Shown in pieces: positions 26,061 to 54,850 of a stretch of 64,000 bases of DNA (the stretch's first letter is position 1; every line of letters begins with the position of its first letter). Source of the stretch: Nocardioides humi (GTDB taxonomy: Bacteria; Actinomycetota; Actinomycetes; Propionibacteriales; Nocardioidaceae). Both the position numbers and the translations under genes were made by a program. The notes beneath the pieces were generated by a model. The model had not been told where the DNA came from. It saw only the letters and a program-made list of their open reading frames with translations, and ran no database searches. The DNA lies in NCBI RefSeq assembly GCF_006494775.1, contig NZ_CP041146.1, positions 682,001 through 746,000 on the forward strand. The letters are read 5' to 3'.

Positions 26061-28534
<2,474 letters not shown>

Positions 28535-28538
<4 letters not shown>

Positions 28539-30880
28539 CGTCCTGCCTCCACCTTGGGAAGGTTGTTCTTGGCCGAGTCGTGATCGAGGTGGGGCGTCTC
28601 GGTCGATTGCGTGGAGACGGCCTGGAACCGGCGTAGGCGCAGGCTGTTGGACACCACGAACACCGAGGAGAAGGCCATGGCGGCCCCAGCGATGAGCGGG
28701 TTGAGCAGGCCGAGTGCGGCCAGGGGCAGTGCCGCGACGTTGTAGGCGAAGGCCCAGAACAGGTTGCCCTTGATGGTGCGCAGCGTGCGGCGGGACAGTC
28801 GGATCGCGTCGACGGCGGCGCGCAGGTCGCCGCGGACCAAGGTGAGGTCGGAGGCCTCGATGGCGACGTCGGTGCCGGTGCCCATGGCGATGCCCAGGTC
28901 GGAGGTCGCCAGTGCGGCGGCGTCGTTGACGCCGTCCCCGACCATGGCGACGGTGCGGCCCTGGCGTTGCAGGCGCTCGACGACGGCGACCTTGTCGGCC
29001 GGAAGGACCTCGGCGATGACCTCGTCGATGCCTACCTCGGCGGCGACCGCGCGGGCGGCTCGTTCGTTGTCGCCGGTGAGCAGCACCGGCCTCAGTCCGA
29101 GCTCCTTGAGCTCGGCCACGGCCTGGGCGCTGGTGGGCTTGATGGCGTCGGAGACGACTAGCACGCCGCGGGTTTCGCCGTCCCAGCTGGCGGCGATCAC
29201 GGTCCGTCCTTCCTGCTCGGCTGCATCGACGACCTGTGCCAGGCGCGGGCCGAGGGGCTGGCTCCACTCCTGGGCGAGCCAGCCGGGCCGGCCCGCCACG
29301 ACCGCGTGGCCGTCGACCACTCCGGCGACGCCGAGGCCCTGGGTCGAGGTGAATCCCTCGACGTCGGGCAGCCGCTCCTCGAGGCGTTGGCTGGCGCCGG
29401 TGGCGATGGCTTGACCGATCGGGTGTTCCGAGGCGTTCTCCAGCGCCCCGACCAGCCGGAGCAGTTCGTCGCCGTCGACGTCGTCGGCGGGCACGGCCTG
29501 AACGAGTTCCATCCGTCCGGTGGTCACGGTGCCGGTCTTGTCCAGGACGATGGTGTCGACCACCCGGGTGGATTCGAGCACCTCGGGGCCCTTGATGAGC
29601 ACGCCGAGCTGGGCGCCGCGGCCGGTGCCGACGAGGAGGGCGGTGGGTGTGGCCAGCCCGAGGGCGCAGGGGCAGGCGATGATCAGGACCGCCACTGCGG
29701 CGGTGAACGCTGCGGTGACGCTGTGGCCGGTCAGCAGCCAACCGGCGAGGGTGGCCAGGGAGAGGGCGATCACGATGGGAACGAAGACTGCCGAGACCCG
29801 GTCTGCGAGGCGCTGGACTTCGGCCTTGCCGTTCTGGGCGTCCTCGACCAGCCGTGCCATCTGGGCCAGCTGGGTGTCGGCTCCGACGCGGGTGGCCCGG
29901 ACCAGCAGGCGGCCGCCGGCGTTCACGGTCGCGCCCACGACGACGTCACCAGGGCCCACCTCGACGGGGACTGGTTCCCCGGTGAGCATGGAGGCGTCGA
30001 CCGCCGAGGTGCCGTCCTCGACGACACCGTCGGTGGCGACCTTCTCGCCGGGGCGCACGAGGAACCGGTCCTCGACCGCGAGCTGGCTCACCGGCACACG
30101 CACTTCTGCGCCGTCGCGGAGTACGGCGACGTCCTTGGCGCCCATGTCCAGCAGGGCGCGCAGCGCCGCCCCGGACTGGCGCTTGGCACGGGCCTCGAAG
30201 TAGCGGCCGGCGATGATGAAGGTGGTGACCGCGGCCGCGACCTCGAGGTAGATGTGGACATCCGCCTCGCCGTCGGGGAAGAGGTCGAACGGCATCCGCA
30301 TCCCGGTCATCCCGGCGTGGGTGAACAGCAGTGCCCACAGGGACCAGAGCCAAGCGGCGGTGACTCCGACGGAGATCAGGGTGTCCATGGTCGCAGCGCC
30401 GTGCCGGGCGTTGGTCACCGCGGCGCGGTGGAAGGGCCAGGCGCCCCAGACCACGACGGGCGAGGCCAGGGTCAGGGAGATCCACTGCCAGTTGTCGAAC
30501 TGCAGCGCAGGGATCATCGACAGGGCCAGGACCGGAGCCGTGAGCACGGCAGAGACGACCAGGCGCTGCCGCCAGCTCGCGGCCTCGCGGTCACGGTCGT
30601 CCGGCTCGGGCTCGGCCGTGGTGGGTTCATCGCCGGTCACCGGGGCGGGCACGGCGGCGGTGTAGCCGGTGGCTTCGACCACGGTGACGAGGTCGGCGGG
30701 GGTGAGGGTCGTCGGGTAGCTGACCTTGGCCTTCTCGGTGGCGTAGTTGACCGTGGCGGAAACGCCGTCGAGCTTGTTCAGCTTCTTCTCGATCCGGGCG
30801 GCGCAGGAGGCACAGGTCATCCCACCGATGGCGAGCTCGACGTCATTGAGGGCACCGGGCGTGTTGGCCTGAAGTGTCAT
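28535..30880 (-). CDS. copA: CopA-type Cu(I)-exporting P1B ATPase
   Basis: 781 residues. One N-terminal HMA domain (residues 13-75) with '[12 protein letters not shown]', about eight transmembrane helices, 'MLTGEPVPV', '[14 protein letters not shown]' (CPC Cu(I) site), 'VLDKTGTVT', 'SEHPIGQ' and 'MVGDGVND'. These are the marks of the P1B-1 copper exporter. It lies downstream of the CopZ-like gene and upstream of the CPD ATPase, all reverse strand, with CsoR at the head of the group. The length and domain count are normal for CopA. Confidence 0.92.
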
Positions 30881-36142: not shown

Positions 36143-37684
36143 TTGTCCGAGATCACTCGTCGCGCCGTCCTTCGCGGAGCCGCCGGACTCGCAGGTGTGG
36201 CCGCCCTCGGTGGCCTTGCCTCCTGCAGCCGGTCAACGGAGACCGCGGTCGGTCCCGCCGCCGACGCGGTCGCAGCGGCGGAGGCGGCGCGCCGGAAGCC
36301 CGGAGGTCGACTCGTCACCGCCCGACTCACCCCGCAGCCGGTGACCCTCGACCTGGGTGGCCGGGCCGTGAGCACGTGGGCCTACGGCGACACCGCGCCG
36401 GGGCCGCTGCTCCGCGTCGACGCCGGCGACGTGCTCCGCGTCGATGTCGACAACCAGCTCTCCGCCGCCACCAGCGTGCACTGGCACGGCCTGGCGCTAC
36501 GCAACGACATGGACGGCGTGCCCGGCATGACACAGGACCCGATCGCCGCCGGAGGGACGTTCCGGTACGAGTTCACTGCCCCTCACCCGGGCACGTACTT
36601 CTACCACCCGCACTCCGGAGTCCAGCTGGACCGTGGCCTGTACGGCGTCCTGGTCGTCGACGACCCCCACGAGCCGGGACGCTACGACGCCGAGTGGATC
36701 GTCGTCCTGGACGACTGGGTCGACGGGACCGGTCGCACCCCGGACCAGATCCTCGCCGACCTGCAGGAAGGCGGCGACGACTCCATGGGAGACATGCATG
36801 ACATGGGCGGCATGGAGGGGATGGACCACGGCTCGATGGGCGGGTCGATGGGTGGGATGCACGGCATCGAAGGCATGCAGTCGCCTCTGCTGGGTGGTGC
36901 TGGGGACATCGCCTATCCGCACTACCTGCTCAACGGCCGGACTACCGAGGATCCGGTCACGCTCTCGGCGAAGCCGGGTCAACGCGTTCGGATCCGCTTC
37001 GTCAACGCCGGCTCGGACACGGCGTTCCGGGTCGCCGTCGGTGGGCACCGCATGACCGTCACACACAGCGACGGCTTCCCCGTCCTGCCGGTGCCCACCG
37101 ACGCGCTGCTGATCGGGATGGGCGAGCGCTTCGACGCCACCATCACCATCGGGGAGGGCGTGTACCCGCTGGTCGCCACCGCCGAAGGCAAACAGGGCCA
37201 GGCGCTCGCCGTGATCCGAACCGGCGCCGGTCGCCCACCCACTGGCGACGTCAAGGTCCGCGAGCTGGCCCGCCAAGTGCTGCTCGGGACCGTCCTGTCG
37301 GCGGCAGAGTCGGTCCGCCTGGACCCGCGGTCGGCCGACAGAAGCCACGACCTCGTGCTGGGCGGCAGCATGGCGCCCTACCGCTGGACCATCAACGGCA
37401 AGACCTTCCCCGACACCGACCCGTTGCAGCTCACCCAGGGGGAGCGGGTCCGGCTGCGATTCGTCAACCACTCGATGATGTTCCATCCCATGCACGTGCA
37501 CGGCCACACCTTCGCCCTGACGAACAGCGGAGCCCGCAAGGACACCGTCATCGTGCGCCCCATGGCGACCCTCGACGTCGACCTCGACGCCGACAACCCC
37601 GGCCAGTGGGCGACCCACTGCCACAACATCTACCACGCCGAGACCGGCATGATGACCACGCTCTCCTACCAGGGCCAGGAGTAA
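36143..37684 (+). CDS. Multicopper oxidase (CueO/CopA-type), Tat-exported
   Basis: 513 residues. The Tat-like leader 'RRAVLRGAAGLAGVAALGG' with a Cys ('LASC') suggests export and perhaps lipidation. Copper sites: 'HWHG' near residue 113, 'HPHSG' near 155, 'HPMHVHGH' near 452 and 'HCHNIYH' near 493, so the T1 and trinuclear centres are complete. A Met/His-rich insertion (about 212-250, 'MHDMGGMEGMDHGSMGGSMG') resembles the Cu(I)-binding loop of CueO. It oxidises Cu(I) outside the cell. The TTG start at 36143 follows AAGGAG. Confidence 0.92.
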   Translation: MSEITRRAVLRGAAGLAGVAALGGLASCSRSTETAVGPAADAVAAAEAARRKPGGRLVTARLTPQPVTLDLGGRAVSTWAYGDTAPGPLLRVDAGDVLRVDVDNQLSAATSVHWHGLALRNDMDGVPGMTQDPIAAGGTFRYEFTAPHPGTYFYHPHSGVQLDRGLYGVLVVDDPHEPGRYDAEWIVVLDDWVDGTGRTPDQILADLQEGGDDSMGDMHDMGGMEGMDHGSMGGSMGGMHGIEGMQSPLLGGAGDIAYPHYLLNGRTTEDPVTLSAKPGQRVRIRFVNAGSDTAFRVAVGGHRMTVTHSDGFPVLPVPTDALLIGMGERFDATITIGEGVYPLVATAEGKQGQALAVIRTGAGRPPTGDVKVRELARQVLLGTVLSAAESVRLDPRSADRSHDLVLGGSMAPYRWTINGKTFPDTDPLQLTQGERVRLRFVNHSMMFHPMHVHGHTFALTNSGARKDTVIVRPMATLDVDLDADNPGQWATHCHNIYHAETGMMTTLSYQGQE

Positions 37685-39276: not shown

Positions 39277-40497
39277 ATGAGCTCAACATCCGGCACCGGT
39301 CCCGACGCGGCTTCTGCGCAGGCTGCGGAGGAACGGCACGGGTGGAGTCGGCGCATGCGGTTCGCTGCAATCTCTGCCGGTGCTTTGGCCATGCTCTCCG
39401 CCGCGGGTGGCCTGGCCGCACTCAACGGCAACGAAGATGGCGCCAACGACTCGACCGCGGCCACTCTCGCCGGCCACCGCGGCATGGTGGAGGGCACCGT
39501 CTGGATCGCCAACGAGGGCGGCGGCTCGCTCACGGCGATCGACGCCGCCACCAACCGGGTCGTGACCACCGTCGCCGGCGTCGAAGGGCCACACAACGTC
39601 CAGGTGTCTCCCGACGGTGCTTCGGTGTGGACGGTGAGTGGCCACGACGGATACGCCGCCATGCTGTCCGCCGAAAGCCTGGACCTGCACGGCGTAGTTC
39701 CGACCGGCTCCGCGCCAGCCCATGTCGTGGTCTCACCGGACGGGGCCACCGCGTACACCACCAACGGGGCAGACGACACCGTCTCCGTCATCGATGCATC
39801 CACCATGAAGGTCATCGACACCATCAAGGTGGGCCAGGGCCCGCACGGCCTCCGACCCAGCCCGGACGGCCGCTGGCTTGTCGTGGCGAACGTCGCCGAC
39901 ACCACGCTCAGCGTCATCGACACCCGGACCAACCAGCTGGTCACAGACATCGTCGTGGGGAAGGCCCCCGCGCAAGTCGCCTTCTCCCCCGACGGCAGGT
40001 TCGTCTACGCCTCCCTGAACGGGGATGACGCCGTGGCCAAGGTCGACATGGCGACGCGCCAGCTGGTCGGCACGGTCGCAGTCGGAGACGGCCCCATCCA
40101 GACGTACGTCACCGGCGACAACCTCTACCTCCTCGTCGCCAACCAGGGCACCGAAGGCTCGCCCGGGACCACGGTCTCAGTCATCGACACCAAGACGTTC
40201 ACCGTGACCGAAATCGTCGAGACCGGGCAGGGCGCCCACGGCATCGTCGTCGACCCCTCCAGCCGGCACGCCTACGTCACCAACATCTACGGGGACGACG
40301 TCGCCGTCCTGGACCTCCAGGAGCTCGAGGTCGTGGCGCGGATCCCCGTCGGAGACAAGCCCAACGGCGTGAGCTTCTCCTCGCTCCCGAACGACGCCGA
40401 AGGCGGCAACGTCACGCTCGACCTTCCCATGGATCCCGAGGTGTCCGCCGACGAGATCGAAGACGGTCACGAAGACGGTCACGAGGACGGTCACTGA
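39277..40497 (+). CDS. YVTN/YncE-type beta-propeller protein
   Basis: 406 residues. An N-terminal helix (about 27-48) exports or anchors it. From residue 70 there are seven blades with the YVTN-type repeat ('VVSPDGATAYTTNGADDTVS', 'AFSPDGRFVYASLNGDDAVA', 'HAYVTNIYGDDVAVLDLQEL'). The C-terminus ends in three repeats of Glu-Asp-Gly-His, a likely metal-binding tail. Substrate or partner unknown. It is the last gene before the right tRNA-like repeat, and a hairpin with a T-run follows it. Confidence 0.8.
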   Translation: MSSTSGTGPDAASAQAAEERHGWSRRMRFAAISAGALAMLSAAGGLAALNGNEDGANDSTAATLAGHRGMVEGTVWIANEGGGSLTAIDAATNRVVTTVAGVEGPHNVQVSPDGASVWTVSGHDGYAAMLSAESLDLHGVVPTGSAPAHVVVSPDGATAYTTNGADDTVSVIDASTMKVIDTIKVGQGPHGLRPSPDGRWLVVANVADTTLSVIDTRTNQLVTDIVVGKAPAQVAFSPDGRFVYASLNGDDAVAKVDMATRQLVGTVAVGDGPIQTYVTGDNLYLLVANQGTEGSPGTTVSVIDTKTFTVTEIVETGQGAHGIVVDPSSRHAYVTNIYGDDVAVLDLQELEVVARIPVGDKPNGVSFSSLPNDAEGGNVTLDLPMDPEVSADEIEDGHEDGHEDGH

Positions 40498-40659
40498 TCT
40501 TCTGGAAGGCGATAGCGCCTCAGTGCCGCTGACTCAGACCCAGACATCGGGGTGGACTTTGCCGACCATCACCTTGCAGTTCGCCCCGCTGGACGAGCTT
40601 CCGCCGAATTTTTGGGTCACCAATCCGCGACATAAGCAGAAACGGTTCAAAATGCGAAC

Positions 40660-40700
40660 GGCCTCTGACCTACGTTTCCGCAGGTCAGAGGCCACTTTTT
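40660..40700 (+). terminator. Rho-independent terminator
   Basis: GGCCTCTGACCT (40660-40671) and AGGTCAGAGGCC (40682-40693) form a perfect 12-bp stem, followed by ACTTTTT. It ends the YVTN gene transcript. In the other direction it follows the tRNA-like repeat. Confidence 0.85.
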
Positions 40701-40736
40701 CGTAGCGGGGGCAGGATTTGAACCTGCGACCTCTGG
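40699..40736 (-). repeat. tRNA 3'-end direct repeat, right copy (attachment-like)
   Basis: 38 bases identical to 21013-21050. Again only the T-arm and acceptor strand are present; the 5' part of a tRNA is absent. The bases beyond each end differ from the left copy. Confidence 0.85.
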
Positions 40737-40860
40737 CTTGTTTCAGCCACTACGGAACGGCGTGGAAGATCGTGGATCTCCTCGGGTTTACGCGGGAAGA
40801 CCTCACAGTCCACTTCGGAGTGTATCGGGTGAGCGCGGGTCCGGCTGGACCTGTATGTGG

Positions 40861-40880
40861 CTGGTTTCTGCCAGCGGCTC
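40861..40880. repeat. 20-bp direct repeat, left copy
   Basis: CTGGTTTCTGCCAGCGGCTC, identical to 44839-44858. Including the next five bases the match is 24 of 25. Confidence 0.8.
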
Positions 40881-41011
40881 GAATCTCGGTCAAGCTGCAG
40901 CGATGAGTCTGCGACCGCCCGCAGTAGCGTCCTGGTCGACGATCGATTGAATGCTCCGGCCGTCTCGGCTCGGTCGACGACGTCGCGAGTCCGACCCGAC
41001 GCGGAAAGTCA

Positions 41012-43468
41012 TCACGGTCCATAGGTGATGGGAACGGTCGCCGGGACGAGGGAGGCGGATACCAGTGCATGGACGTCGAGGTCGACGTCGCCGAGGTCCA
41101 CGCTGACGACCGCTGAGTAGGGCAGCTCCTTGTCCCAACCCTCGCGACTGTCCTCCCACCAACCGAGAACCGGATACACCGCAAGCAGTCGCGTACCCGC
41201 GAGATGAGAGGCCGGGACCGTGGCGTGGTCGTGTTGAAGGGTGCCTCGCGAGCGCGCATCGGCCGGAATCACCCATGGGTAGGAGCCGGAGCCGGGAGTG
41301 ACACCCTGCTCAAGGACGACCTTGTTGATCCGCGCCCTGAATCCGTCGGCGGTCTCGGTCGGGCCCTGGAGGTCCCATCGGAGACGGCCGCCCACGTACG
41401 CGCGGCGGGTCAGGTTGTCGGTCGGCTCCGCGAAGTACGAGAGGGTGACGGCCAGATCGACGTCTGACTCTCCGATCGCGTGCAACTCGTCCTCTGGGAA
41501 GGGGATCTCGATGAAGTCCGCCTGACGGTCTGCCCTGGATCCCGTGTGCCGGCTCGGCTTCAGCGAGCCCTCGTAGACCATGACCGGCCGGTTCGAATCA
41601 CTCGCCAGCGCGAGGTCAGGCCGGGGCACGCCGTAGCCGAACGAGCGAAGCAGATCACGCTGGTCCGGGAACTGCGCCACAGCTGCATCGGGCCATCGGG
41701 CCGTGTGGACGAGCAGGGCTCGCCAAGTGGAAGGCAGGAGCACAGGATGGGCTGCAGCGATCTGCGCGAGCGCGTTCGACGCCGCCGCGGCCGCCGGACT
41801 GGTCTTGTACGTGCGTCGCAACAGGCTGCCAGCTCCCCCGGCCGTCGACTGGAGCGTCAGTATGCTGAGGCCCTGCGCATCGGGGTTCTCCAATCCAACG
41901 CCGGGAGCAGTGTTGCCAGCCTCCATAACGATGTCCGGCTTGATCGGGCTATTGGCGACGACTGCGGTTCGGCTGTGTGGACTCAGCTGTCCAGCCGCAG
42001 CCAGCGGAGCGGGATAGCCCATTGCCGTGTCCGCGGCTGTCAGCCCGTCGAGGGCGGTGTATCCACCCACCGTCAGAACGTTCCATGCCTGACCAGGCTG
42101 CTGTAGGTGCGGCGGCCCGAGGTTGATGTATGGGTAGTCCGCCGGATCAGTGATCGTGTCAGCGTTCCCGCCCGCGACGACCAAAAGACGACCGTGGCCC
42201 CCGTTCCACGCCAGGACGTCGGCGGCAACCGACCACGAAGTGCGGTCGGTCTTGCCGATCGCTGGATTGTCGGCCCCGATGCTCAGGTTATGCACGACCG
42301 GTCGACCACCCGCGAGAGATTCAGCAACATCGATGGACTCAACCGTGCGCTCGGCCCACAGCACGCCGCGTTCGGGATCCCCGCCAGCATCAGCGGCAGA
42401 TTCGAGCAGCCGCATCGCGACGAGCCAGGCGTCCGCGTGAAGGAGCCCGCCCGCGACGCCATCGGCGAGCGCGGAGTATGCGGCAACCCCTGCCATCTGA
42501 GTTCCGTGCCCGTCCAGGTCCGCCGAGCCGAGGACCCCCGGCACCACGCTTTCGGCACCGAGAAGGATGGGGCTGACGTAAGGATGCGAGGAGTCCACCC
42601 CGCTGTCATGGACCGCGACGACAACCGCATCCTCGGGTGGCTCGTCGACGTCCGCCAGCTCGCCAGCCTGATCCTGCGCCTCTGCGAGAACGATCGGGAA
42701 GACTGTGGGCGCCCGGTGCACCTCTGCTGCGTCGGGGAGAAGGACCGGGAGCGCCTTGAGCGAAGCCCCGCTCGCGAGCACGACGTGCACATCTCGCTCG
42801 GGCCCACGGAAGACCGGGATTGCCTGCGCGCCGTCGTCGGTCAGCGCGGCGAAGCTGGCAACGGTCGCATCGATAGTCCGGTGTTCGTCGGGGCTCAGTC
42901 GCGCTCCGCCACGGGTCCAGATCTCGACCCATAGCCGTTCCTCGTCTGCTATGTCGTTGGCGATCTCACCGAGACTCAAGTCCGCGATGGTGGCCATTGC
43001 GATGGCGTCGATGCGAGCGACGGGGTCCGCGAAGCGCGGGTTTCCCTTCGCGGTGTTCTCCTCGGCGTACGCGACGGCCTTGTTCCGGAGTCCCACGAGG
43101 TCATCCGTGACTCGGAAGGTGACCCGCCCCTCGCCGGTGACGAGCAACTCGTTCTCGGACCTCGTGGGAACCAACTTGCGAGCCACCAGCGGGTCTCCCA
43201 GACCGGGGCCAACGGCGGTGACCAGCGCTGACGACTCGGTCCGCTCCAGTTCCGCGCGAGCGGCGGCGATCTGCTCGGTCACTTGGTCGAGCTGAGACAA
43301 GACGATAGCGGCTTGCTGTGCACGATCGCGTTCGGGCACTTGCGGCGTCCGACCGGACCGCCGGGTGACGAACTGCTCGCGTGCGGCTGGGCGGAGCGCG
43401 AGGAGAGGAAGGCCGCCGACAATCACCCCCGATTCTGTCGGGCGGTCCCGTCGCCGTTGAGTTGCCAC
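41012..43468 (-). CDS. Subtilisin-like serine protease (S8) with N-terminal helical domain
   Basis: 818 residues from GTG 43468 (AGGGAG nine bases upstream; GTG 43474 is too close to that site). Residues 45-80 look like a coiled coil and 80-250 are a domain I do not recognise. The S8 domain spans about 275-600: Asp288 in 'VAVHDSGVD', His321 in 'DGHGTQMAG', Asn435 in 'VVAGGNAD' and Ser557 in 'KTSPAAAAA'. About 215 C-terminal residues follow. There is no signal peptide, so it should act in the cytoplasm. It is divergent from an AAA ATPase gene, with an XRE gene between. The whole block lies between 20-bp repeats, like a transferred defence cassette. Confidence 0.85.
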   Translation of the reverse strand: MATQRRRDRPTESGVIVGGLPLLALRPAAREQFVTRRSGRTPQVPERDRAQQAAIVLSQLDQVTEQIAAARAELERTESSALVTAVGPGLGDPLVARKLVPTRSENELLVTGEGRVTFRVTDDLVGLRNKAVAYAEENTAKGNPRFADPVARIDAIAMATIADLSLGEIANDIADEERLWVEIWTRGGARLSPDEHRTIDATVASFAALTDDGAQAIPVFRGPERDVHVVLASGASLKALPVLLPDAAEVHRAPTVFPIVLAEAQDQAGELADVDEPPEDAVVVAVHDSGVDSSHPYVSPILLGAESVVPGVLGSADLDGHGTQMAGVAAYSALADGVAGGLLHADAWLVAMRLLESAADAGGDPERGVLWAERTVESIDVAESLAGGRPVVHNLSIGADNPAIGKTDRTSWSVAADVLAWNGGHGRLLVVAGGNADTITDPADYPYINLGPPHLQQPGQAWNVLTVGGYTALDGLTAADTAMGYPAPLAAAGQLSPHSRTAVVANSPIKPDIVMEAGNTAPGVGLENPDAQGLSILTLQSTAGGAGSLLRRTYKTSPAAAAASNALAQIAAAHPVLLPSTWRALLVHTARWPDAAVAQFPDQRDLLRSFGYGVPRPDLALASDSNRPVMVYEGSLKPSRHTGSRADRQADFIEIPFPEDELHAIGESDVDLAVTLSYFAEPTDNLTRRAYVGGRLRWDLQGPTETADGFRARINKVVLEQGVTPGSGSYPWVIPADARSRGTLQHDHATVPASHLAGTRLLAVYPVLGWWEDSREGWDKELPYSAVVSVDLGDVDLDVHALVSASLVPATVPITYGP

Positions 43469-43745
43469 GCCCACTTGCTCCCTGCGCGCGACTAGCGCGA
43501 CGAACTAAGTCGTCCAGCGGCAGCGCAAGGGCTCCGGCAATCGCAGCGACGACCGAGAAGCCCGGATCAGTCACGGCCGCTTGCTCGATCTTCGCGATCG
43601 TGTGGCCTGACACACCGCTCAACTCTGAGAGCTGCTTGCGGGTGAGGCCTGCGTCGTCACGGGCCTGGCGCAAGGTCGCTACGACCGAACGCGCCAGGTC
43701 CTCACGGGAACGCGTCCCGCGACTCGGCCTGCCTCGTTGGTGCAT
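43423..43745 (-). CDS. XRE-family regulator upstream of the subtilase, end uncertain
   Basis: ATG 43745. Residues 18-80 form a Cro/C1-type helix-turn-helix ('SVVATLRQARDDAGLTRKQL', 'SGHTIAKIEQAAVTDPGFSV'). The frame as printed stays open for 370 bases into the subtilase gene in a Pro/Arg/Ser-rich form, which is implausible. Adding one G to the ggg near 43474-43476 would end the protein at 43423 after about 107 residues, consistent with other G-run breaks in the window. It probably represses the divergent promoters at 43746-43814. Confidence 0.6.
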
Positions 43746-43814
43746 TTCACCATTCTAGAGGTAAATTATTACTTGTCGGCCCGAGGCCGTAGGCTACTCG
43801 CGAGGAGGTGAACC

Positions 43815-44789
43815 GTGGCGAACGCCGAGTACCTGACCGAGCTGGTCCGCGCGCACTACAGTGGCGACGACCGGCGGTTTTCCAACCTCCTCAACCAAGT
43901 GATCGCCGCGGAGTCGCGTGCAGGACACTCCCGTCTTGCTGAGCGCCTGCGGGAGTTGCGGATCGAAGGGACGCGCAGCGATTCGGCTGCCAAGGCCACT
44001 CCTCTCGCCCGTGCGCCGAGAAGCCTCGAGCAGATCCTGTCCGTCGGCTATAGCGAGACGAAGCTCGCGGATCTCGTGTTGTCACCAGAGACGCGCGTCT
44101 CGCTTGAGCGGTACGTAGTCGAGCAACGACGAGCGGAGGCGCTAGCGGACCACGGCCTCAAACCACGTCGACGCCTGCTCCTCCACGGGCCGCCTGGCTG
44201 CGGCAAAACCATGACCGCACAAGCGCTCGCAGGTGAGCTCAAGCTCCCACTGATCCGCGTTCGCCTCGAGGTGGTCTTCAGCAAGTATCTCGGCGAAACG
44301 GCCGGCACCCTGTCAGATGTTTTCGCGGAAGCCGCGCGCGTGCGCGGCGTGTACCTCTTCGATGAGTTCGATGCGCTTGGAAGGACCCGCCTCGACGACA
44401 GCGAGGTTGGCGAGATCAAGCGGGTAGTCACCACCTTCTTGCAGCTTCTCGATGCTGACCACAGCGACAGCCTCCTGATCGCCGCCACCAACACCGGACA
44501 CGCCCTCGACACCGCTCTGTTCCGTCGATTCGATGACGTCTTAGAGCTCCCCGCGCCGACGGACGCTCAGCGGCGAGAGTTGCTCGGCCGACTCCTGCGC
44601 CCTTGGCGCCTTAGGCCCACAGAGAATCTGGTTGGTGCGACGGCCGGGCTGTCCTTTGCTGACATCCGCGCGGCGATCGAAGACGCTCACAAAGACGCGA
44701 TCCTTGGTGATCAACCCCAACCGAGCCGGGAATCCATCGCAAGCAGGCTGATCGAACGTCAGTCGCGCGTGCCCTCCCGAACACCGTGA
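43815..44789 (+). CDS. AAA ATPase (FtsH/ClpX-like core) paired with subtilase
   Basis: 324 residues from GTG 43815 with a GGAGGTG site. An N-terminal helical region (1-70) has no recognised fold. The AAA core has Walker A 'GPPGCGKT' (125-132), Walker B with 'YLFDEFDAL' (Asp183-Glu184), sensor 1 'AATNTG' and an Arg finger 'RRFDD'. 'YLGETAGTLSDVFAEA' is the second-helix pore region typical of FtsH/p97-type AAA proteins. It may unfold a substrate or the sensor domain of the subtilase. The gene is divergent from the XRE-subtilase pair. The pairing AAA + S8 recalls predicted two-gene defence systems. Confidence 0.85.
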   Translation: MANAEYLTELVRAHYSGDDRRFSNLLNQVIAAESRAGHSRLAERLRELRIEGTRSDSAAKATPLARAPRSLEQILSVGYSETKLADLVLSPETRVSLERYVVEQRRAEALADHGLKPRRRLLLHGPPGCGKTMTAQALAGELKLPLIRVRLEVVFSKYLGETAGTLSDVFAEAARVRGVYLFDEFDALGRTRLDDSEVGEIKRVVTTFLQLLDADHSDSLLIAATNTGHALDTALFRRFDDVLELPAPTDAQRRELLGRLLRPWRLRPTENLVGATAGLSFADIRAAIEDAHKDAILGDQPQPSRESIASRLIERQSRVPSRTP

Positions 44790-44838
44790 TCACAGCCTGA
44801 GGCCTCGACTCCAGGTGACCTCCATAGCCTTTCAGCGA

Positions 44839-44858
44839 CTGGTTTCTGCCAGCGGCTC
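44839..44858. repeat. 20-bp direct repeat, right copy
   Basis: Identical to 40861-40880. The two copies bracket exactly the subtilase-XRE-AAA block. Confidence 0.8.
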
Positions 44859-46769
44859 AAATCCCTGCCGCCTCAGCGAAGGAGCCTCCGCGCGGCCTTA
44901 GCAGGCGTCGAGGTGGACTTCCCTGCAGCGAGCTGTCGGAACTCGGACGGCAGATCGATAGCACGGCCTGACCGCTCGGCGAGGTCGGCCGCCAGCTCGA
45001 GGAAGCCGCCGGCGTCGCGGCGTCCTGGCAGTGCGGTCACGATCTCCTGGAGGGCGTCCAAGATGGGGAGGACAGCGGCGTCGGCGGCACGAGCGCACTC
45101 ACTCAGGCCGGTGCTGACGCGCTGGCCCACGACGATGTCGTCGGTGAGGAGGAGCGCCGCTTGGCGCCCCAGTTCCTTGCCGTCGAGGACGCCGTACCGG
45201 GCGAGGTCCAGGATTGCGTCCTGCGCGGCCATACGGCCGCGTGCGTCTTTGGCCGCGAGTTCGAGCACGAGCGCCGAGGACGACGGCGGGCCGGTCATCG
45301 TCGTAGCTCGGGCGATCGCGTCGATCACAGCCACGCTGCAGGCGCGGTCTTTCCGAAGATCCCGCGCCAGGTACGGATGTGCGTGAGCGGCTGCTACGTC
45401 GTGGTCGTGAGGCAGGAGGGCGGCACCGAGTCCCAGGGTCTGCTCGAAGCGGGGTTCGTACTGTCCGTATCCCGACTCCTCCTCCACCGTGGTCGCGGGT
45501 GACGTTCTGGCGAGGAAACCTGCAGCAGCGTGCCCTTCGCTACCTCCGGTGTCCCGGAAGATCGCGGCACGCTGCTCCGGCTCCCAGTTGTAGTTCTGGA
45601 AGGTGGCGACCTCGCGTGCCCATCGGGGCGGACGACCTTCCCGAAGGTGCTGGAGTGCTGCTGACTTCCTGAGGGTTCGCGGCAGCTCGACCGTGTTTCG
45701 ATCGCGCGGCGCGACTCGGAGCAGGGCGACGACGAGCTCGAGCTCGGAAATGGGGCGCGATCGGCTCGCGTCGCGGAGCCGGCGGTTGAGCTCGCTGGCG
45801 TTAATGGTGAAGTCGGCGTGGGTTGGGAGTGCGACGGAGACATGGTTGCCATCGCGAACCGCGTGGGCGATTCCGGTGAGCCGTCGTCCGATCGCTCCGA
45901 CGTGAGTGTGGGGATCCGCTGCGACGGTGGGAAACACTGTGTGGCCGAGAGCAATGGGCCAGTCTTCGCTCCGCAGGCGGCGCCGGGGCGTCAGCCAGGC
46001 GAGGGTGAACACGCGCGCAGCAATGCGGGGGTCGTCTTGGTAGTACTCCGCTTCGGCTGCACGTGCGTTCAGAAGGTCTGCCGTTGACGGGCGGTCAGTT
46101 GCGAAGCGCAGGAGTCCGTCGATGGCGCGTTCCGTCTCGAGTGGCTCGACCTGCTCGAACAGGCCCAGGAGGACTTCGCCCAGTTCCTCGGCGGACTCGA
46201 CGGGCCGGACTGGCTCGGCCGGCGACCGCTTCTCTGGCGGCGCGGGTGCGAACGACGCCTGCTCGTGGCTGACAACAGGTTGGGTTCCGAACTGCTCGAG
46301 GATCTTGGCAGCCTGCTCTCGGATGTCCGCGCGCGGATGATCGAGAGCGATGTGGACGGTGTCGATTACGGAGACGTGTGGGTGTGCCTTGCCGAGCTTG
46401 GCGAGAAGGCGCAGGTGCGCTGCCACTGTTGCCTTGTCGGTCCTGCCGACGGTGGCCTTGCTGGCGTCGAGAAACCCCTGAGCGTCGAACCGCTGGTCAG
46501 CCATCAGGCGAAGTAGTTCGCGTTGGGCCATCTTGACTGACGGCCCGTGTTCGACCGTCAAGAGCCGTGCGTAGGTGCCTTGGCGTTCGGCGATCTCGTC
46601 GAGAGTTGGCTCTAGGGCGTCGTGTAGGCCGACGTACCAGCCGAGGTCGGCCGCAGCCCAGTCGCGCAGAGGTGCGGCGAGGACGGCATCCAGCAACCGG
46701 CCACGATCGAGTCGTCCCTCTTGGGACAGAACGAGAAGGGTCACCCGCCAAGTCGCGGCAGGGAACGGC

Positions 46770-48175
46770 GACAGAGCCCCGCGGGGTGGTGGGCTTTGAG
46801 GTGATCCTCGGTGCCTACGAGTCGCTGCCCTCGATGGCGGCGACGGGGTCAGTATCGCTGGTCTCGTAGAGCTTCGCCATCGAGCCTTCAGACAGGTAGC
46901 GGCGATCGGCGGCGATCCACTCGTCGTGCATGTCGATCAGCACGGCTCCGACCAGCCTGATGACCGCAGCGGGGTTGGGGAAGATCCCCACGACGCGGGA
47001 GCGGCGCTTGATCTCCTTGTTGACCCGCTCGAGCGGGTTGGTCGACCAGATCTTGCGCCAGTGCTCGCGCGGGAACGCGGTGAAGGCGAGGACCTCGGTC
47101 TTCGCGTCGTCCATGTAGGGACCGATCTTGGGCCACCTGAGGGCGAACTCCTCACGGGTGCGGTCCCAGGCCGCGTCGATGTCGGCTGGCTTGGCTTGGG
47201 CGAAGATCATCCGGAACGCTGCGGCGACGTAGTCGGCCTGACCCTTGGGGACGTGGGCGAGGAGGTTGCGGGCGAAGTGGACACGACACCGTTGGTGCGC
47301 GACGCCCTGGAACGCTCGGGACAGGGCTGCGACTAGCCCGGAGTGCTGGTCGCTGATCACCAGTTGTACCCCGCCCAGACCTCGCTGCTTGAGGCTGAGC
47401 AGGAACGCTCGCCAGAACGTCTCGTCCTCGCTGTCGCCGACGTCCAGTCCGAGGATCTCCCTGTCCCCACGGGCGGTAACGCCGGTCGCGACGACCACGG
47501 CCATGGACACGACTTGGCCACCCTTGCCGGGCTTGTTGCGGACGTGGAGGTAGGTCGCGTCGAGGTAGATGTAGGGGAACTCGACGTGGTCCAGGGTGCG
47601 GGTGCGGAACGCGCCGACGGTCTCGTCGAGGTTGGCGCAGATCCTGGAGACCTCGGACTTGGAGATCCCGGAGCCGCCCATCGCTTCGACCAGGTCGTCG
47701 ACGCTGCGCGTGGAGATGCCGTGGACGTAGCACTCCATCACCACCGCGTAGAGCGCCTGGTCGATGCGGCGGCGGGGTTCGAGGATGATCGGGAAGAACG
47801 ATCCCTTGCGGAGCTTGGGGATCCGCAGCTCGACGTCGCCGGCCTTGGTGGTCAACGGCCGCGTCCGGTGGCCGTTGCGCTCGTTGGTGCGGTCCTCGGT
47901 GCGCTCGTAGGGCGCGGCGCCGATCCGTTCGGTCGCTTCGAGTTCGATCAGCTCCTGGAGCGCGACACGGACCGATTCACGGATCAGGTCGACACCATCA
48001 CCGGCACGAAACGCGTCGAGGATCTCGGACAGGGCAGACTGGGGCAAGGCCATCGGAGGGACTCCTTCTTCAGTGTGTTCTTGGTCGTTCACACCGAAGA
48101 TCCCGCCGATGGCCGCCTACGTGCTGACGCCTCGCCGCTGGTCCCTCAAACCCCACCACTCCCGGGGACTCTTAC
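46770..48175 (-). mobile_element. IS256-family insertion sequence, 1406 bp
   Basis: Imperfect inverted repeats lie at 46774-46801 and 48144-48171 (23 of 28 match), four bases in from the ends. An 8-bp target duplication, GGAACGGC, flanks it at 46762-46769 and 48176-48183; 8 bp is the norm for IS256. It encodes one intact transposase. Its removal restores the interrupted host gene precisely. Confidence 0.93.
46815..48092 (-). CDS. IS256-family (Mutator) transposase
   Basis: 425 residues. The DDE triad is visible: Asp in 'YIYLDATYLHVR', Asp in 'VISDQHSGLV' and Glu in 'STNPLERVNKEIK'. The 'RCRVHFARNLLAHVPKGQ' segment is the conserved CxxH-type region of Mutator transposases. Full length for the family and apparently intact. 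Confidence 0.95.
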   Translation of the reverse strand: MNDQEHTEEGVPPMALPQSALSEILDAFRAGDGVDLIRESVRVALQELIELEATERIGAAPYERTEDRTNERNGHRTRPLTTKAGDVELRIPKLRKGSFFPIILEPRRRIDQALYAVVMECYVHGISTRSVDDLVEAMGGSGISKSEVSRICANLDETVGAFRTRTLDHVEFPYIYLDATYLHVRNKPGKGGQVVSMAVVVATGVTARGDREILGLDVGDSEDETFWRAFLLSLKQRGLGGVQLVISDQHSGLVAALSRAFQGVAHQRCRVHFARNLLAHVPKGQADYVAAAFRMIFAQAKPADIDAAWDRTREEFALRWPKIGPYMDDAKTEVLAFTAFPREHWRKIWSTNPLERVNKEIKRRSRVVGIFPNPAAVIRLVGAVLIDMHDEWIAADRRYLSEGSMAKLYETSDTDPVAAIEGSDS

Positions 48176-48775
48176 GGAACGGCTCGTGGTTGGGCAGGTA
48201 CTCGTAAGTGCTTTCGCAGAAGTTGTCGTGGTAGGCCAGCAGCCGGCCTGTTCCCTCCGTCGCGAGCATCTGGAGGAGGTGCTCCCCCACGAGGCCAGGG
48301 TCGGCGTCGAGTTGGTCGATCAGCGGCCGGCGATCCTTGGCGTAGTAGTCGGGCACGCCGCGGACGGTGCCCCGGAAGTACTGCGGATGCTCGGGCGCGG
48401 GTACCGCGTTCGCCCGCACGAGCGCGCGTGTCATGCGCCAGTTCAAGGTGCCCTCGCCGTCCAGCAGCGCATCGACGAACTCCGGGAGCCACGGTGGGTT
48501 GCGGGCCACCAGGATCGCGGCGGCGTGGTTGACGAACGAGTCATCGAGCCCGAAGAACTGGTCCACAGCGATCATCGCTTGCCGCTTCCCGCCGGCGGTC
48601 GCAATGACGGCGAGGGCTGCGTGGGTCGACGAGATCCGTGTGGGGTTGCCTTTGGTGAGCCACGCCCGGGCCTTCGGGCCGAGCGCCTTGCGGTCCGACT
48701 CACCAAGCTTGATGAGTGCGGACGTCACGTATGAGGTGTCACCGTGCTCGAGCCATGTGAGGACGCCTTCGAGAC

Positions 48776-50140
48776 TCACGCCTGCTGCTTTCGGACGAGG
48801 TCAGCGGCAAGGACGTGCTTGCAGGGGCCTCTGCTTCCCTTGTGTTTGGCGTACCAGGGGCAGGTGCACCGGTCCCCGGCCTCGGTGCGGCGGACCACGT
48901 GTTCGGTGTCTCCGCTACGGACGTAGGCGGCGGAGCCGTCGAGCCGGACGGCGCCGGCGTTGACGAGTGCGGTGGCGTCGCGGAGTCGCGGGTGCATGGC
49001 GGCAAGGCGCTCGGGGTTGTAGGGCAGTTCCCGGTGGAAGTAGGCAGCTTCGGCTGCGTCGTAGCCGACTCGGCCGGCCGCACCGAGCCGCCCGAGGGCT
49101 CCCGTCACGCGGTCCTCGCTCAGGCCTGACTCTGCGGCGAGTCGCTGGATGTCGATGCGTGGCTCGAATGCCAGAAGAACCGAGATGAGGTCGGCATCGT
49201 CGGCCGATTGCTCGTCGGCGAGGTCCCAGAGCACCCCGCCTTCGCCGGAGAATCCGCGGCTGGATTCGGGGCTAAGGGCGAGCACGAGTCGTGCGTCGTC
49301 GAGCTCGAGTTCCCAGACGCCGGTGGCGCCTTGGGAGTCGTGCGGGGCGGCGTAGGCGCGTAGGGATCGCGCGAACCGCAGGAGTGGTTCGAGCGGCTTG
49401 AGTCGGTCGAGGCCGGACAGGGACACCCCATCGGGCGTCGGGCGTGTAGTGATCCGCAGCCCGCGACCGGCGGGGACGACCCAGACTGGCTTTCGGCTCC
49501 CGCTGCTGGGCAGACTGCGGATGAATCGGCGGGCCTCCGCGGCGGCTACCTCGAACGCCGGGGTCACGGTGGCGGAGGCGAGTTGAACCTCTGCAAAGCC
49601 TTTGAGCCATCGCTCGGGCAGGGAGACCTTCTTCTCGGTCACCTCGGTGTCGAGGGTGCGTACGACGACGTCTTCGCCGACCTGGAGGTGAAGGGGTTCG
49701 AGGCCGCCGATCCGTGCCAGGGCGTCGCGCATCGGTGGGTTGAAGTCGACGTTGGTGGTGCCGGTGTCGAGCACGGTGCCGTCGAGGCTGCCCGGCAGGG
49801 CGTCGTAGCGGGCGTAGACGCCGCAACAGGCAGAGAAGCTCTCGAATCGGAGCCGGTCGACGTTGCTCGTGACGACCGGGTCTGCGGCACGCAGGATCGC
49901 AGCGACCATGCCGGGCGGCATGTAGAAGCGGGTGCGGGCGACCTTGGCGACGGCGAGCAGGGCGGCGGCGGCTTGCTCGGGGTGTCCGAGGAAGCCATCG
50001 AAGAAGACGGGGTGGGGGGCGGGCCCGGTGGCAGTCCGCCCGCCACTCGTGGCGAGCATGAGGTCGGCTCGGCCGTCGGCGAAGGTCAGTTCCGAGGGGC
50101 GGACGTAGGTGTACGTCTGCTCCTCGGTGGTGGCTGCCAT
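48776..50140 (-). CDS. SWIM zinc-finger protein
   Basis: 454 residues from ATG 50140. The C-terminal SWIM motif is 'CTCPWYAKHKGSRGPCKH' (CxC...CxH). The region around 355-390 ('ISVLLAFEPRIDIQRLAAES', 'DRVTGALGRLGAAGRVGYDA') looks like a winged helix. The large N-terminal part has no recognised fold. SWIM domains bind DNA or protein. It is located between the two HEAT-like genes: 10 bases after the first and overlapping the second (ATGA). The three are probably one functional unit. Confidence 0.85.
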   Translation of the reverse strand: MAATTEEQTYTYVRPSELTFADGRADLMLATSGGRTATGPAPHPVFFDGFLGHPEQAAAALLAVAKVARTRFYMPPGMVAAILRAADPVVTSNVDRLRFESFSACCGVYARYDALPGSLDGTVLDTGTTNVDFNPPMRDALARIGGLEPLHLQVGEDVVVRTLDTEVTEKKVSLPERWLKGFAEVQLASATVTPAFEVAAAEARRFIRSLPSSGSRKPVWVVPAGRGLRITTRPTPDGVSLSGLDRLKPLEPLLRFARSLRAYAAPHDSQGATGVWELELDDARLVLALSPESSRGFSGEGGVLWDLADEQSADDADLISVLLAFEPRIDIQRLAAESGLSEDRVTGALGRLGAAGRVGYDAAEAAYFHRELPYNPERLAAMHPRLRDATALVNAGAVRLDGSAAYVRSGDTEHVVRRTEAGDRCTCPWYAKHKGSRGPCKHVLAADLVRKQQA

Positions 50141-50150
50141 GGTCGAGAAC

Positions 50151-52593
50151 CTAGCCGAGCAGGAGGCGCGCGGTCTTGGCTGCAGCAGAACTGCCGGAGA
50201 AGGTGCCGAGCCATCGCAGCAGTGCCGGGTCGGCGGTGGTCCGGCCGAGGCGGATGTGCTCATCGCGGAGGAGGTCGAGGAGCTTGTTGAGCCCGCGATG
50301 GTCGGTGGGGAGTTGCGGGAGCAGGCAGGTCAACAGCTCGACGGTCGCGACGCCGCCGCCCGGCGCTTGGGAGACCGCCGCCAACGATTCGGCCCATCGG
50401 GTCGCGGGCCACGCTTGGGCGTAGCGCGCCATGACCGCTGCGATGTCGCTGATCGGGATGCGGCCGGTCACGGCGAGGTCCAGGAAGGCGTCGACTGCGT
50501 GGAGCCGATGGTCACGCTGTGTTGCCGAGATGCCGGACGCGAGCGTCGCCGCGGACAGGGTCCCCATGCGGCCGGGGTGACGAGCCAGCACGTCGACGGT
50601 GCGCGGTACGTCGTGGGCAGTCTCGGTCCAGCTTGGCGATTCCAGCACGGGTAGGCAGGTGAGGGAGAGGAAGTGCTCGGCGTCGTGGGGCCAGATCGCC
50701 GCCAGTGCTGGGATCCAGTCGCCGAGGAATCGGCTGGTGTAGCCGCCACCCCATTGGTCGGAGGTCTGGGCCTTCAGCTCGGTCGGCTGGTCGTCGGCCG
50801 GCCGATCGGTGTGCGTGGTCGTGACGGCGAATCTGGCGTACCACGATCGACGGTCGCGGCCGTTCTCCTGCCAGGTGTGGGTCTTGATGTCGCCGCTCAG
50901 CCGAGGAGCCTCGGTGGCCGCGTACGGCGCGCGGGATCGTTCGGCAGCGCGCCACCATGCGGCAGGGCCCTCCCGGCGGCTTCGCATGAGCCGCCTGTTC
51001 GGTTCTACGCCGTCGAGCGCGAATCGGGCCGCGGCGGGCAGGCTTCCAGCCCCTCGGCTGGCTGTGTCGCGGTCGTCGGGGTGGAGGCGGAGGAGGGCGG
51101 CGATCAGGTCGTGGTGGCGCGGGTTGGGGTTGTGCGCCAGGCGTTCGACGAACGCGGCGGGGCTGACCCAGCCACCGGGAAGGTCGGGGGTGGCCAGCAG
51201 CGGTGCGGTCGAGGTGCGGACCTCCGCGATCCGCCGTGCGATGAAGCGCTGTGCGGGATGGTCCGGGTCGGCCGGTGGGGCCGGGTCGCCGAGCACGTCC
51301 AGGATGAGTCGCGCGACCTGGCCGGGGAGCCAGGCATCTCCGATGTCGGTGCGGGGGCCGCGGGCGACGACCGCCTTGGCTCGCTTTCGCAGGGGGCGAG
51401 TGCGCCGTCGGCGCTCCGTGTGGCGAGTGCAGCGAGCAGGGCCTCGAACTCGCCCACGTCGGATGCGTCCTCCAGGAGTGCTGCTGTTCGTTCCGCGAGG
51501 TCTTCGCCGGTGATCGCCGGTGAGGCGGCGGCGAGGGTCTGGCTCGCGGGCACTTCGGTCTCGCGCTGGATGTCAGCGCCGAATCCGAGTTCGTGACGCA
51601 CGCTCGGGGTCAGGTCATCAGCGGCGACGCGCACCGCGTCGGCGTCCCCAAGGTCGGCGAGGAGTGTTGCTGCGGCGCGCTGGACGTCCGGGTTCGGGTG
51701 GCCGAGGGCAGCTTGTGCGACGGCACGGACCGAGTCGGGGAAGTCGACTCGTCCGGCGCCCGCGAGCTTGAGGGCAGCCAAGGCTGTCCCCTTGGCCTTG
51801 ACGAGGGTGGCGGGCGGCAATGCGTCGAGTGTCGCCTTGACGTCGAGGGGGCCGGCCTTCTCGACGCGTGAGAGCTGCTTGAGAGCAAATGCGACGGTGG
51901 CAGGGACGGCCGCGCCGAGTAGCCGTCGCAGGTCGGCCTGGGCGCCGGCTGTCTCATCGATGGTGGGCTCGAACGCCAGGTAGGTGGCGGAGTACCAGCC
52001 GGCTCGGTAGGCGGCGAAGTCGCGTCCGAGGGCATGGAGGCAGGCGGTCAGCACACGAGCACGGTCGAGGGTGCCGTCCGCTGCGAGCTCCAGGAAGGTC
52101 TTGCGCCACTCGTCGCCACCGAAGCGGTCAACGTTGGTGAGGCTGACCTCTCCCCGCCTTCGATCTCGAAGACACGCCACAGGGCGCGCTCGATCAACTC
52201 CAGGTCGGCTCGCAGCTTCTCGGGCTTGTCCGGACCGAGCGAGCTGACCATCGCGAGCACATAGGTGTCATCTGGCTCGAGGTCGACCAATCCCAGGCGT
52301 TCGAGGAGTCGGACGCGAAAGAACCGTTCGCGCGACCAGTAGGAAGTGGCTGCTTGACGCAGCTCGCGGACGACGACGCCGTCGAGCCAGCGGGGCTTCG
52401 TGCCACTGGATGACGTTTCGCCTGAGGCCGCCGATTCCAGAGCTCGGTCGATCGCCTCGATCAGGGCAGCATCCTTCTGCCACGCGAACTCATACTGTGC
52501 GGCGATCGCGGGCTCGGCCTGAGTTGCCAGCGATCCGTAGAGCACGTCGCGCGGCGTCCCGACGAGAGCACCGAAAGGCGTTAGATCAGTCAT
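50151..52593 (-). CDS. Large HEAT-like protein (DUF6493-like), two apparent frameshifts
   Basis: ATG 52593 overlaps the upstream gene's end. Three consecutive pieces in different frames join when one G is added at each of two G/C runs: the cccc at 52152-52155 (joining '...EIEGG' to 'GEVSLTNVDRFGG') and the ggggg at 51392-51396 (joining '...GALAP' to 'LRKRAKAVVARGPRTD'). The whole is about 814 residues of helical repeats, the same size as its paralogue at 44873-48779. I recognise no active site. DUF6493-type proteins are of unknown function and recur next to SWIM proteins. Confidence 0.75.
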
Positions 52594-53516: not shown

Positions 53517-54566
53517 TCACAGTCCGAGGTCGCGGCTGGAGGTGACCTGCATGGCTTCCAGTGGACGGATGTAGTGCTCGACGAGTGTGGAGATGCGGGA
53601 GTGGCGGGTCTGGGCTGCGATGCGGTCGAGGCCGACGCCGGCCATGGCGGCGGTGGTGGCGTGGCCGGCGCGCAGGGAGTGGCCGCTGATCCGTTCCGAC
53701 GGGATGCCGGCGGCGGCTGCGCGTTCCTTGAGCATGCGGGCCAGGCCGCTGCCGGTGAAGGGGCGGGGTCCGATGCGGTCGTGGTGGAAGCCCTTGAACA
53801 GTTGGCCGGGTTGGCGGCCGCGGTAGTCGAGCCAGGCGTCGAGCGCGGCGACGGGGTCGGTCTCGACGTGTTGCCCATGGGCCACGCCGACGAGCTGGCC
53901 GTGCGCTTCGGGGTCGGTCTTGGATCGGCGGACCCGGACCAGTAGTCCGTCGGGCTTCGGTTCGATGTCGGCCAGGTCGAGGGCGGCGATCTCGCTCCGA
54001 CGCAGGGCTGAGGCGAAGCCGAGCAGGATGATGGCGGCGTCCCGCTTGCCCCGTGGGTCGTCGCGGTCGATGCCGTCGAGCATCTTGCGGATCTCGGCGG
54101 TGTCGAGGGGTCGGGACTGGCGGCGGGGCGCGGTGCCGAGAGTGCGGCGGATGCCGCGGCGCACGGCGCGGACGGTTGGGTCTGCTGTCGGGTTGTCGTG
54201 GCCCTCGGTCTCGTGGGCGGCACCGATGGCCGCGCTGGCGCCCTCGATGGTGCCGGCGGCGAAGCCGAGGGTGGCCATGTCGCTGAGGTAGGCGCTGACG
54301 GTCGCTGGACTGGCTGGCAGGGTCGGGATGCCGCGCTCGGCGCACCAGCGGTCGAAGCGGCGGAACATCGAGGCGTAGGTCTTGCGGGTCGAGGCCGCCC
54401 GCCCGGCGGCGATCGTCTCGGAGATCCGGGCGAAGTCCTCGGGGGTCAGGCCGTCGGGCAGGTCGGTCGCGGTCCAGCCGAAGGCGCGCAGGCCCCTGTT
54501 GGCTCCAAGGGCAACGACGGCGGCGTCAGCGGAGGTCCGAGGTGTGGTGACGAGGGCTAGATTCAT
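53517..54566 (-). CDS. Tyrosine recombinase/integrase
   Basis: 349 residues from ATG 54566. SAM-like core-binding domain about 40-130 ('ASTRKTYASMFRRFDRWCAE'). The catalytic residues are Arg in 'SALRRSEIAA', His and Arg in 'GHSLRAGHA', His in 'TRHSRIST' and Tyr in 'VEHYIRP'. It has no arm-binding domain, so it is of the XerC/resolvase-like simple type used by transposons and plasmids. It may mobilise the adjacent defence-like operon. A 40-base sequence upstream (54630-54670) is shared with 21203-21242 and may be its site. Confidence 0.88.
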   Translation of the reverse strand: MNLALVTTPRTSADAAVVALGANRGLRAFGWTATDLPDGLTPEDFARISETIAAGRAASTRKTYASMFRRFDRWCAERGIPTLPASPATVSAYLSDMATLGFAAGTIEGASAAIGAAHETEGHDNPTADPTVRAVRRGIRRTLGTAPRRQSRPLDTAEIRKMLDGIDRDDPRGKRDAAIILLGFASALRRSEIAALDLADIEPKPDGLLVRVRRSKTDPEAHGQLVGVAHGQHVETDPVAALDAWLDYRGRQPGQLFKGFHHDRIGPRPFTGSGLARMLKERAAAAGIPSERISGHSLRAGHATTAAMAGVGLDRIAAQTRHSRISTLVEHYIRPLEAMQVTSSRDLGL

Positions 54567-54850
54567 GGGCCTCGTCCTACCGACCCGCGCCGCTGGACGC
54601 GGGGTTCGGGTCGCCCTGGGGGACGTTAAGGGACATAAATGCGGCACGACTCAAATCGATATCGAGTCCCCCAGAAGAGCCGACCTCGCAGCGCAGGAGA
54701 CCGTCCCGGGATCAAGCTATTGAGTTTGCCGCCGCAGGATCCCTGCCCCCTCCGCGCCGACGGGAACGAGGGTTACCCGCTCGGTCATCCGGCGATCCGG
54801 GCGGTCCCTGCCGAAACGCGGACGGTCGGACAGCGCAGCAGAGGACGGTC

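Follow-up and report, generated by a model that had tools for sequence, protein, structure and literature searches.

The block studied here occupies positions 40861–44858 of a 64,000-nucleotide stretch of the Nocardioides humi genome (assembly GCF_006494775.1, contig NZ_CP041146.1, positions 682,001–746,000 of the forward strand), hereafter the window. Between two direct repeats it contains three open reading frames (ORFs), encoding an S8 (subtilisin-type) protease, an XRE regulator at the head of the protease gene, and a divergently oriented AAA ATPase (Table 1). All three were seen in an initial annotation, which took the block for an undescribed defence system. Analysis of the proteins showed instead that the block is very likely an IetAS system, an ATPase/protease pair, in an XRE-associated divergent layout.

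Table 1. Features of the IetAS block and the adjoining island terminus (window coordinates)
Feature	Position	Strand	Basis and remarks
Island terminus	40699..40885	+	tRNA-Met 3'-end copy 40699–40736, about 125 conserved bases, ietS-side repeat 40861–40885
ietS, S8 (subtilisin-type) protease, 804 aa	41012..43426	-	GTG start as in record P0004; ORF reaches 43474
ietS catalytic residues	Asp 42605–42607, His 42506–42508, Ser 41798–41800	-	Homologue alignment
XRE regulator, normal length 107 aa	43425..43745	-	PF13560/PF01381; frame in the window runs to 43101 (43101–43745, 214 aa)
Divergent promoter region	43746..43814	.	TAGAAT 6 bases before XRE start; TAGGCT 19 bases before ietA start; GAGGAGG before ietA
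AT-rich block, candidate XRE operator	43760..43774	.	Conserved in six-locus alignment, between two -10-like elements
ietA, AAA ATPase, 324 aa	43815..44789	+	PF00004 1.4e-28; PADLOC IetA; NCBIfam IteA below cut-off
ietA Walker A GPPGCGKT	44187–44210	+	Sequence motif
ietA Walker B YLFDEFD	about 44352–44372	+	Sequence motif
ietA-side copy of the 25-base repeat	44839..44863	+	None beside ietA in L013–L016

The S8 protein matched Pfam Peptidase_S8 (4.5e-35), and its best PADLOC family was IetS (4.3e-36, profile positions 245–761 of 795). The ATPase matched the PADLOC IetA models PDLC04232 (8.9e-72, profile positions 1–320 of 330) and PDLC02196 (3.8e-69). Since both proteins belong to known IetAS families, the idea of an undescribed system was rejected, and the proposed role in conflict or defence is supported by IetAS membership, not as that of a novel system. 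The block is a variant of IetAS that has its own small DNA-binding regulator and sits at the margin of a mobile island.

The ORF of the protease (41012–43474, reverse strand) is longer than the identical database record P0004 (804 aa), which begins 16 codons inward, at the GTG codon 43426; a length of exactly 804 aa was found in 11 of the 108 rows of S8 homologues. Asp274, His307, and Ser543 (P0004 numbering) were invariant in all 80 homologues taken into the alignment from these 108, and Asn421 was nearly invariant, confirming the full catalytic set noted initially. By eye, the N-terminus reads as lacking a signal peptide. The first structure model of IetS (15 sequences, mean predicted local distance difference test score 65) was poor, and its matches were replaced by those of a second model; no IetAS chain was named among the best 60 of 96 and the best 60 of 278 PDB matches. 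One database protein of 1,175 aa (P0084), which may be chimeric, carries an IetS-like part joined to further domains, which we take to be type I restriction R-subunit Pfam domains.

The toxin and antitoxin roles, and the link of IetAS to phage resistance, are taken from papers on relatives. A mycoplasma AAA ATPase/subtilase pair (TA132/133) behaved as antitoxin and toxin, clearly in M. capricolum, with confirmation in E. coli and inconclusive results in B. subtilis; a synthetic cell did not survive loss of the ATPase gene alone, and the pair was seen to be flanked by direct repeats (PMC8562856). The same paper cites IetS/IetR of pTiC58 as a toxin-antitoxin (TA) system of plasmid stability, and a similar pair, sgiAT, is carried by SGI1 (PMC10954446). 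The block shares with the pTiC58 and mycoplasma pairs an AAA ATPase combined with a subtilase, their antitoxin and toxin, and with the mycoplasma pair also the direct repeats; the mycoplasma genes, however, form one operon by RNA-seq, and the accessible text mentions no XRE gene (PMC8562856). Likewise, sgiAT resembles the block as an S8 subtilase toxin with an AAA antitoxin on an integrative element, but it is described as an operon, with no XRE gene mentioned in the part of the report available (PMC10954446). Among P. aeruginosa isolates, carriage of IetAS is correlated with resistance to phages (PMC11878078). Compared with the IetAS of PADLOC (IetA/IetS) and NCBIfam (IteA/IteS), the block has the same two families side by side, retains the catalytic and Walker motifs, and is sporadic in distribution, whereas its genes are divergent rather than in line, ietS stands behind an XRE gene, and the scores fall below the NCBIfam cut-offs. 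The first description of IetAS as a defence system reportedly came from Gao and colleagues, in 2020.

Gene order was compared between the window and 28 loci, comprising 23 distant loci from 22 genomes and the closer loci L013–L017. The distant set covered 23 of 27 places, the weaker or fragmentary ones (G010, G041, G693, and G493:C31) being left out. All 23 distant loci, whose IetS is 28%–35% identical, have both genes on one strand with ietA upstream, and the window XRE protein, the one regulator searched for, had no match (E 0.01) in the surrounding 7–14 kb. This usual layout, which is not known to be required for IetAS, is absent from the window: here and in L013–L016 (73%–91%), ietS lies behind the XRE gene, and the two are divergent from ietA. 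The locus L017, from an actinobacterial metagenome-assembled genome (IetS 59%), likewise has an XRE gene divergent from ietA, but ietS is still downstream of ietA and the promoter spacing differs; its layout looks like an intermediate. The IetA tree, built without L051, which is split over frames, grouped the XRE type (support 0.82) and joined L017 to that group (0.997). The window layout therefore looks derived: the XRE gene would have joined first, and ietS would later have come to lie behind it.

The XRE protein matched HTH_31 (2.4e-10) and HTH_3 (3.5e-9) of Pfam. Its frame in the window, 214 aa, is abnormally long compared with 97 or 107 aa in L013–L016. Among 51 homologues the length was 71–124 aa, with 33 of them at 97–107 aa; the search could return proteins of about 58–185 aa, a range that excludes the 214-aa form. 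The database record P0112 (longest contig, 905661 bases) has 107 aa identical to residues 1–107 of the window frame. Because normal-length copies exist in L013–L016 and P0112, the long frame reflects either an error of assembly or a change that took place recently. The stop codon of the XRE gene overlaps the ietS start in L013 and L016 and ends 26 (L014) and 25 (L015) bases ahead of it, and in alignment the window lacks one base relative to L013 immediately ahead of the ietS start. An XRE–S8 fusion or a programmed frameshift was considered for the 374-base overlap of the frames and rejected, since the XRE gene is separate in L013–L016 and the identical 107-aa record exists.

The divergent starts of XRE and ietA are 69–71 bases apart in the five loci of the window type (the window and L013–L016). 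Leaderless promoters of actinobacteria carry a TANNNT -10 element 6–7 bases ahead of the start codon. In all five loci such an element precedes the XRE start by 6 or 7 bases, and another precedes the ietA start by exactly 19 bases, with GAGGAGG also ahead of ietA. A promoter scan of 40400–45000 returned a single promoter-like match, the XRE promoter (1 found versus 0.3 expected). Within the genome, the AT-rich block between the two elements is unique when up to 2 mismatches are allowed. It forms an inverted repeat in L016 (reached by 12 of 500 shuffles) and, weakly, in L017 (89 of 500). Most likely, the XRE protein is a repressor of transcription that the window-type IetAS lineage acquired; one operator may control both promoters.

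In the mechanism that we propose, XRE would most likely bind the AT-rich block between the promoters and limit both the XRE–ietS and the ietA transcripts. IetS would act as a cytosolic subtilisin-type protease toxin, kept inactive by the AAA ATPase IetA. Phage infection or loss of the element could upset the balance of the two proteins, and the freed IetS would then cleave cell or phage proteins, stopping growth or infection. Our own data cover the protein families, the catalytic residues, the predicted fold, the gene order, the conserved promoter spacing, the sporadic occurrence, and the termini without IetAS; dual repression by XRE, the trigger, the substrate, and the route of entry are inferred. 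The initial annotation had the ATPase unfold or sense and the XRE protein hold the protease off. Its view of a controlled protease agrees with studied relatives in so far as the ATPase neutralises the protease there (PMC8562856; PMC10954446); the XRE protein most likely acts on transcription. A bolder version seems quite improbable to us: a single XRE operator would silence toxin and antitoxin together, the toxin mRNA being leaderless and the antitoxin mRNA having a strong Shine-Dalgarno-type sequence, so that the pair would sense disturbed translation. If true, ribosome stress or phage action favouring leaderless messages would raise toxin over antitoxin.

The 20-bp repeat CTGGTTTCTGCCAGCGGCTC is exact at 40861–40880 and 44839–44858 and extends to 25 bp with one mismatch. 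At up to 3 mismatches the window contains only these two matches (0.02 expected in shuffles), in line with the initial annotation, which found no third copy, and no further copy occurs elsewhere in the 6.22-Mb genome. Its tRNA-end repeat is also real: 40699–40736 copies the 3' end of the tRNA-Met gene at G000:869172–869246 (G000 is the genome of the window). Further copies lie at G000:640233, at 703013 (window 21013–21050), and at about 748461, that of the block being at 722699; the four copies and the gene represent a tandem island array of about 229 kb at one tRNA gene.

When 209 genomes of the genus were searched with 40737–40890, this stretch turned up in 16, the window's own among them. 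The copies elsewhere, 73%–94% identical, occupy 19 places in 15 of the 208 other genomes, and at 14 of the 19 the stretch is preceded by the tRNA-Met end, with up to 5 mismatches allowed. In the alignment of 15 copies, conservation stops at the end of the repeat, the consensus of which includes the palindrome GCCAGTTTCTGGC. We read 40699–40885 as a conserved island terminus of about 190 bases, which may provide the attachment arm in a family of integrative elements; in G005, a 54% relative of the window integrase lies about 300 bases from the terminus. IetS, IetA, XRE, DUF6493, and SWIM proteins were not encoded (E 1e-5) in the 3–17 kb around the 19 places. Repeat-like copies (up to 7 mismatches of 25) numbered one at 10 places and none at 9, and no place had two; a 2-mismatch repeat match near G478 sits in a relative of the whole terminus.

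The homology between the window and L013 spans 40859–44783, from the ietS-side repeat through ietA. In L013 the repeat is present (2 mismatches in 20) while the rest of the terminus is absent. The repeat thus occurs with the terminus alone, with IetAS alone (L013), and twice around IetAS (window), which points to it as the crossover point of module entry. The module seems to have entered the island at the inner end of the terminus, a step that would have duplicated the last 25 bases. Movement of the block as a unit, suggested initially, is supported in part, by termini that lack IetAS and carry at most one repeat-like copy and by the terminus-free IetAS and repeat of L013. With regard to the empty site called for by the annotation, the 19 places have a terminus without IetAS in the 3–17 kb around it; a strict empty site was not found.

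Relatives of the pair are sporadic, being present in 5 of 58 (E 1e-3), 6 of 394 (E 1e-20), and 18 of 391 (E 1e-8) genomes in three overlapping samples, each of which counts the window's own genome; every relative in these samples except the window's own was at most 41% identical. The pair is therefore not fixed in the core genome, the finding named initially as fatal to a defence role. Relatives of the S8 protein, not all of which need be IetS, occur in 449 plasmid records, 245 of them with coverage of 80% or more of the query, and in 2 phage records. A close search of viral contigs revealed no relative, and the degenerate repeat had no exact match there. In a megablast search of plasmids, the one match to the block was 35 bases long and fell within the tRNA copy. 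Linkage was estimated from equal longest contigs, a proxy that does not prove a shared contig, in clustered lists and among the matches listed. By this measure, 12 of 49 XRE rows (49 of 51, two having no contig entry) pair with an IetS row, and the count rises to 25 of 49 when the first 58 IetA rows are admitted as well, the IetA rows being the best 120 of 2,409. All 12 XRE-paired IetS rows had at least 74% identity; counted at a 62% threshold, 12 of the 52 rows at or above it were paired and none of the 56 below it. Some relatives look decayed: ietA and ietS are split over frames in L051 (G023), L061 (G735) has an in-frame TAG, and G493 holds a fragment with stops.

Several results weigh against this picture. 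The S8 protein scored 44 bits on NCBIfam IteS (cut-off 900) and the ATPase 198.8 bits on IteA (cut-off 510), so both are far from tested members; in the open-access literature we found no experiment on the window-type subfamily. The published resistance link is correlative, and a lysogenization test failed for an IetAS phage (PMC11878078). Regarding the regulator, the XRE frame of the window is abnormal, and the TANNNT distances are absent in L017, given the start codons chosen. Since TANNNT is loose, with further matches in the same promoter region, and the five loci are related, their conserved spacing is support, not proof. The palindrome clearly beats shuffles in L016 only: in the other four loci the best inverted repeat lies elsewhere and is no better than shuffles. 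As for entry, L014–L016 have neither a repeat copy nor a repeat pair, no repeat stands beside ietA in L013, and the contig of L013 ends 146 bases past its repeat, which weakens the crossover argument. No site joining terminus, repeat, and the right flank of the window was found in the 209 genus genomes; the ietA-side flank was never seen joined to a single-copy terminus.

The genomic surroundings give a mixed answer to the expectation that S8–AAA relatives stand beside defence genes. An LmuB/PtuA-like ATPase at L016 was the sole neighbour recognised by PADLOC among those tested at L013–L017, with none of nine recognised at L013, L015, and L017. Pfam identified a NACHT-FGE protein at L013 and an XRE-STAND-Mrr protein at L017; the neighbours at L015 are ordinary genes, and L014 holds an unclassified 1,090-aa protein. 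Among 10 right-hand neighbours in the window PADLOC found no defence gene, one of them having weak Csa3 matches. The defence context of the relatives is thus no more than suggestive.

The pair could alternatively serve mainly for stabilisation of the island, loss of which would leave IetS without fresh IetA, with anti-phage action secondary. Relatives do stabilise pTiC58 and form the TA system of SGI1 (PMC8562856; PMC10954446), S8 relatives, some of which may not be IetS, are frequent on plasmids, and the first repeat is 125 bases inside the tRNA-Met edge of the island. On the other hand, PADLOC and NCBIfam hold IetAS as a defence system, the P. aeruginosa correlation concerns phages (PMC11878078), and the two roles can coexist; we regard addiction as the main function as possible but rather unlikely. 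A housekeeping quality-control protease with an ATPase unfoldase appears highly improbable: an AAA ATPase with a protease is a common housekeeping design, and IetA also resembles Cdc48/PAN ATPases, but the sporadic occurrence of relatives refutes a core housekeeping function.

A different question is whether an independent 4-kb mobile cassette, with the repeats as its recombination ends, moves between islands alone or with an outside recombinase. The exact, genome-unique 20-bp pair, the stop of L013 homology at the ietS-side repeat, the termini without IetAS, and the repeats flanking the mycoplasma pair (PMC8562856) would all suit such a cassette. However, the block contains no recombinase, the repeat is missing beside ietA in L013, from L014–L016, and from viral contigs, the end of the L013 contig is close, and one insertion event, whether by homologous or by illegitimate recombination, fits the window equally well. 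An independent cassette is a tentative and not very probable explanation, and entry of the IetAS module at the inner end of the terminus is preferred.

To the right of the block, window 44873–50263 contains a DUF6493 gene followed by a SWIM-finger protein, the nearer right-hand gene matching PADLOC SWIM_XIII (1.5e-46), and a second DUF6493 piece lies at 51104–52180; these genes are a candidate conflict operon. An IS256-family transposase gene (46815–48092) stands between the DUF6493-type pieces 44873–46744 and 48117–48779. The relative of this split gene in G487 (L072) has no transposase, and its frame is also split. It is 68% identical, and the 1.5 kb on its repeat side is unrelated to the window; the search behind this match hit 97 of 209 genomes, nearly all with short stretches, which were set aside. 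The same island encodes a tyrosine recombinase (53517–54647; Phage_integrase, 5.4e-14). On the other side, a heavy-metal P-type ATPase frame (26061–29741, Pfam) and a gene that looks by eye like a multicopper oxidase (36143–37684) suggest that the island neighbouring the block may serve metal resistance.

No report of the XRE-type layout was found in searches of one open-access library. The mechanism of IetAS defence was stated as unknown in 2025 (PMC11878078). With toxin and antitoxin on opposite strands beside a dedicated regulator, each partner could be varied separately, and this split layout makes it testable whether the trigger is transcriptional or post-translational. Tools expecting a two-gene ietA–ietS operon may miss the regulator. 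The tRNA-Met island terminus, in turn, provides a marker by which the inner boundary of these islands, a possible place for such cargo, can be located.

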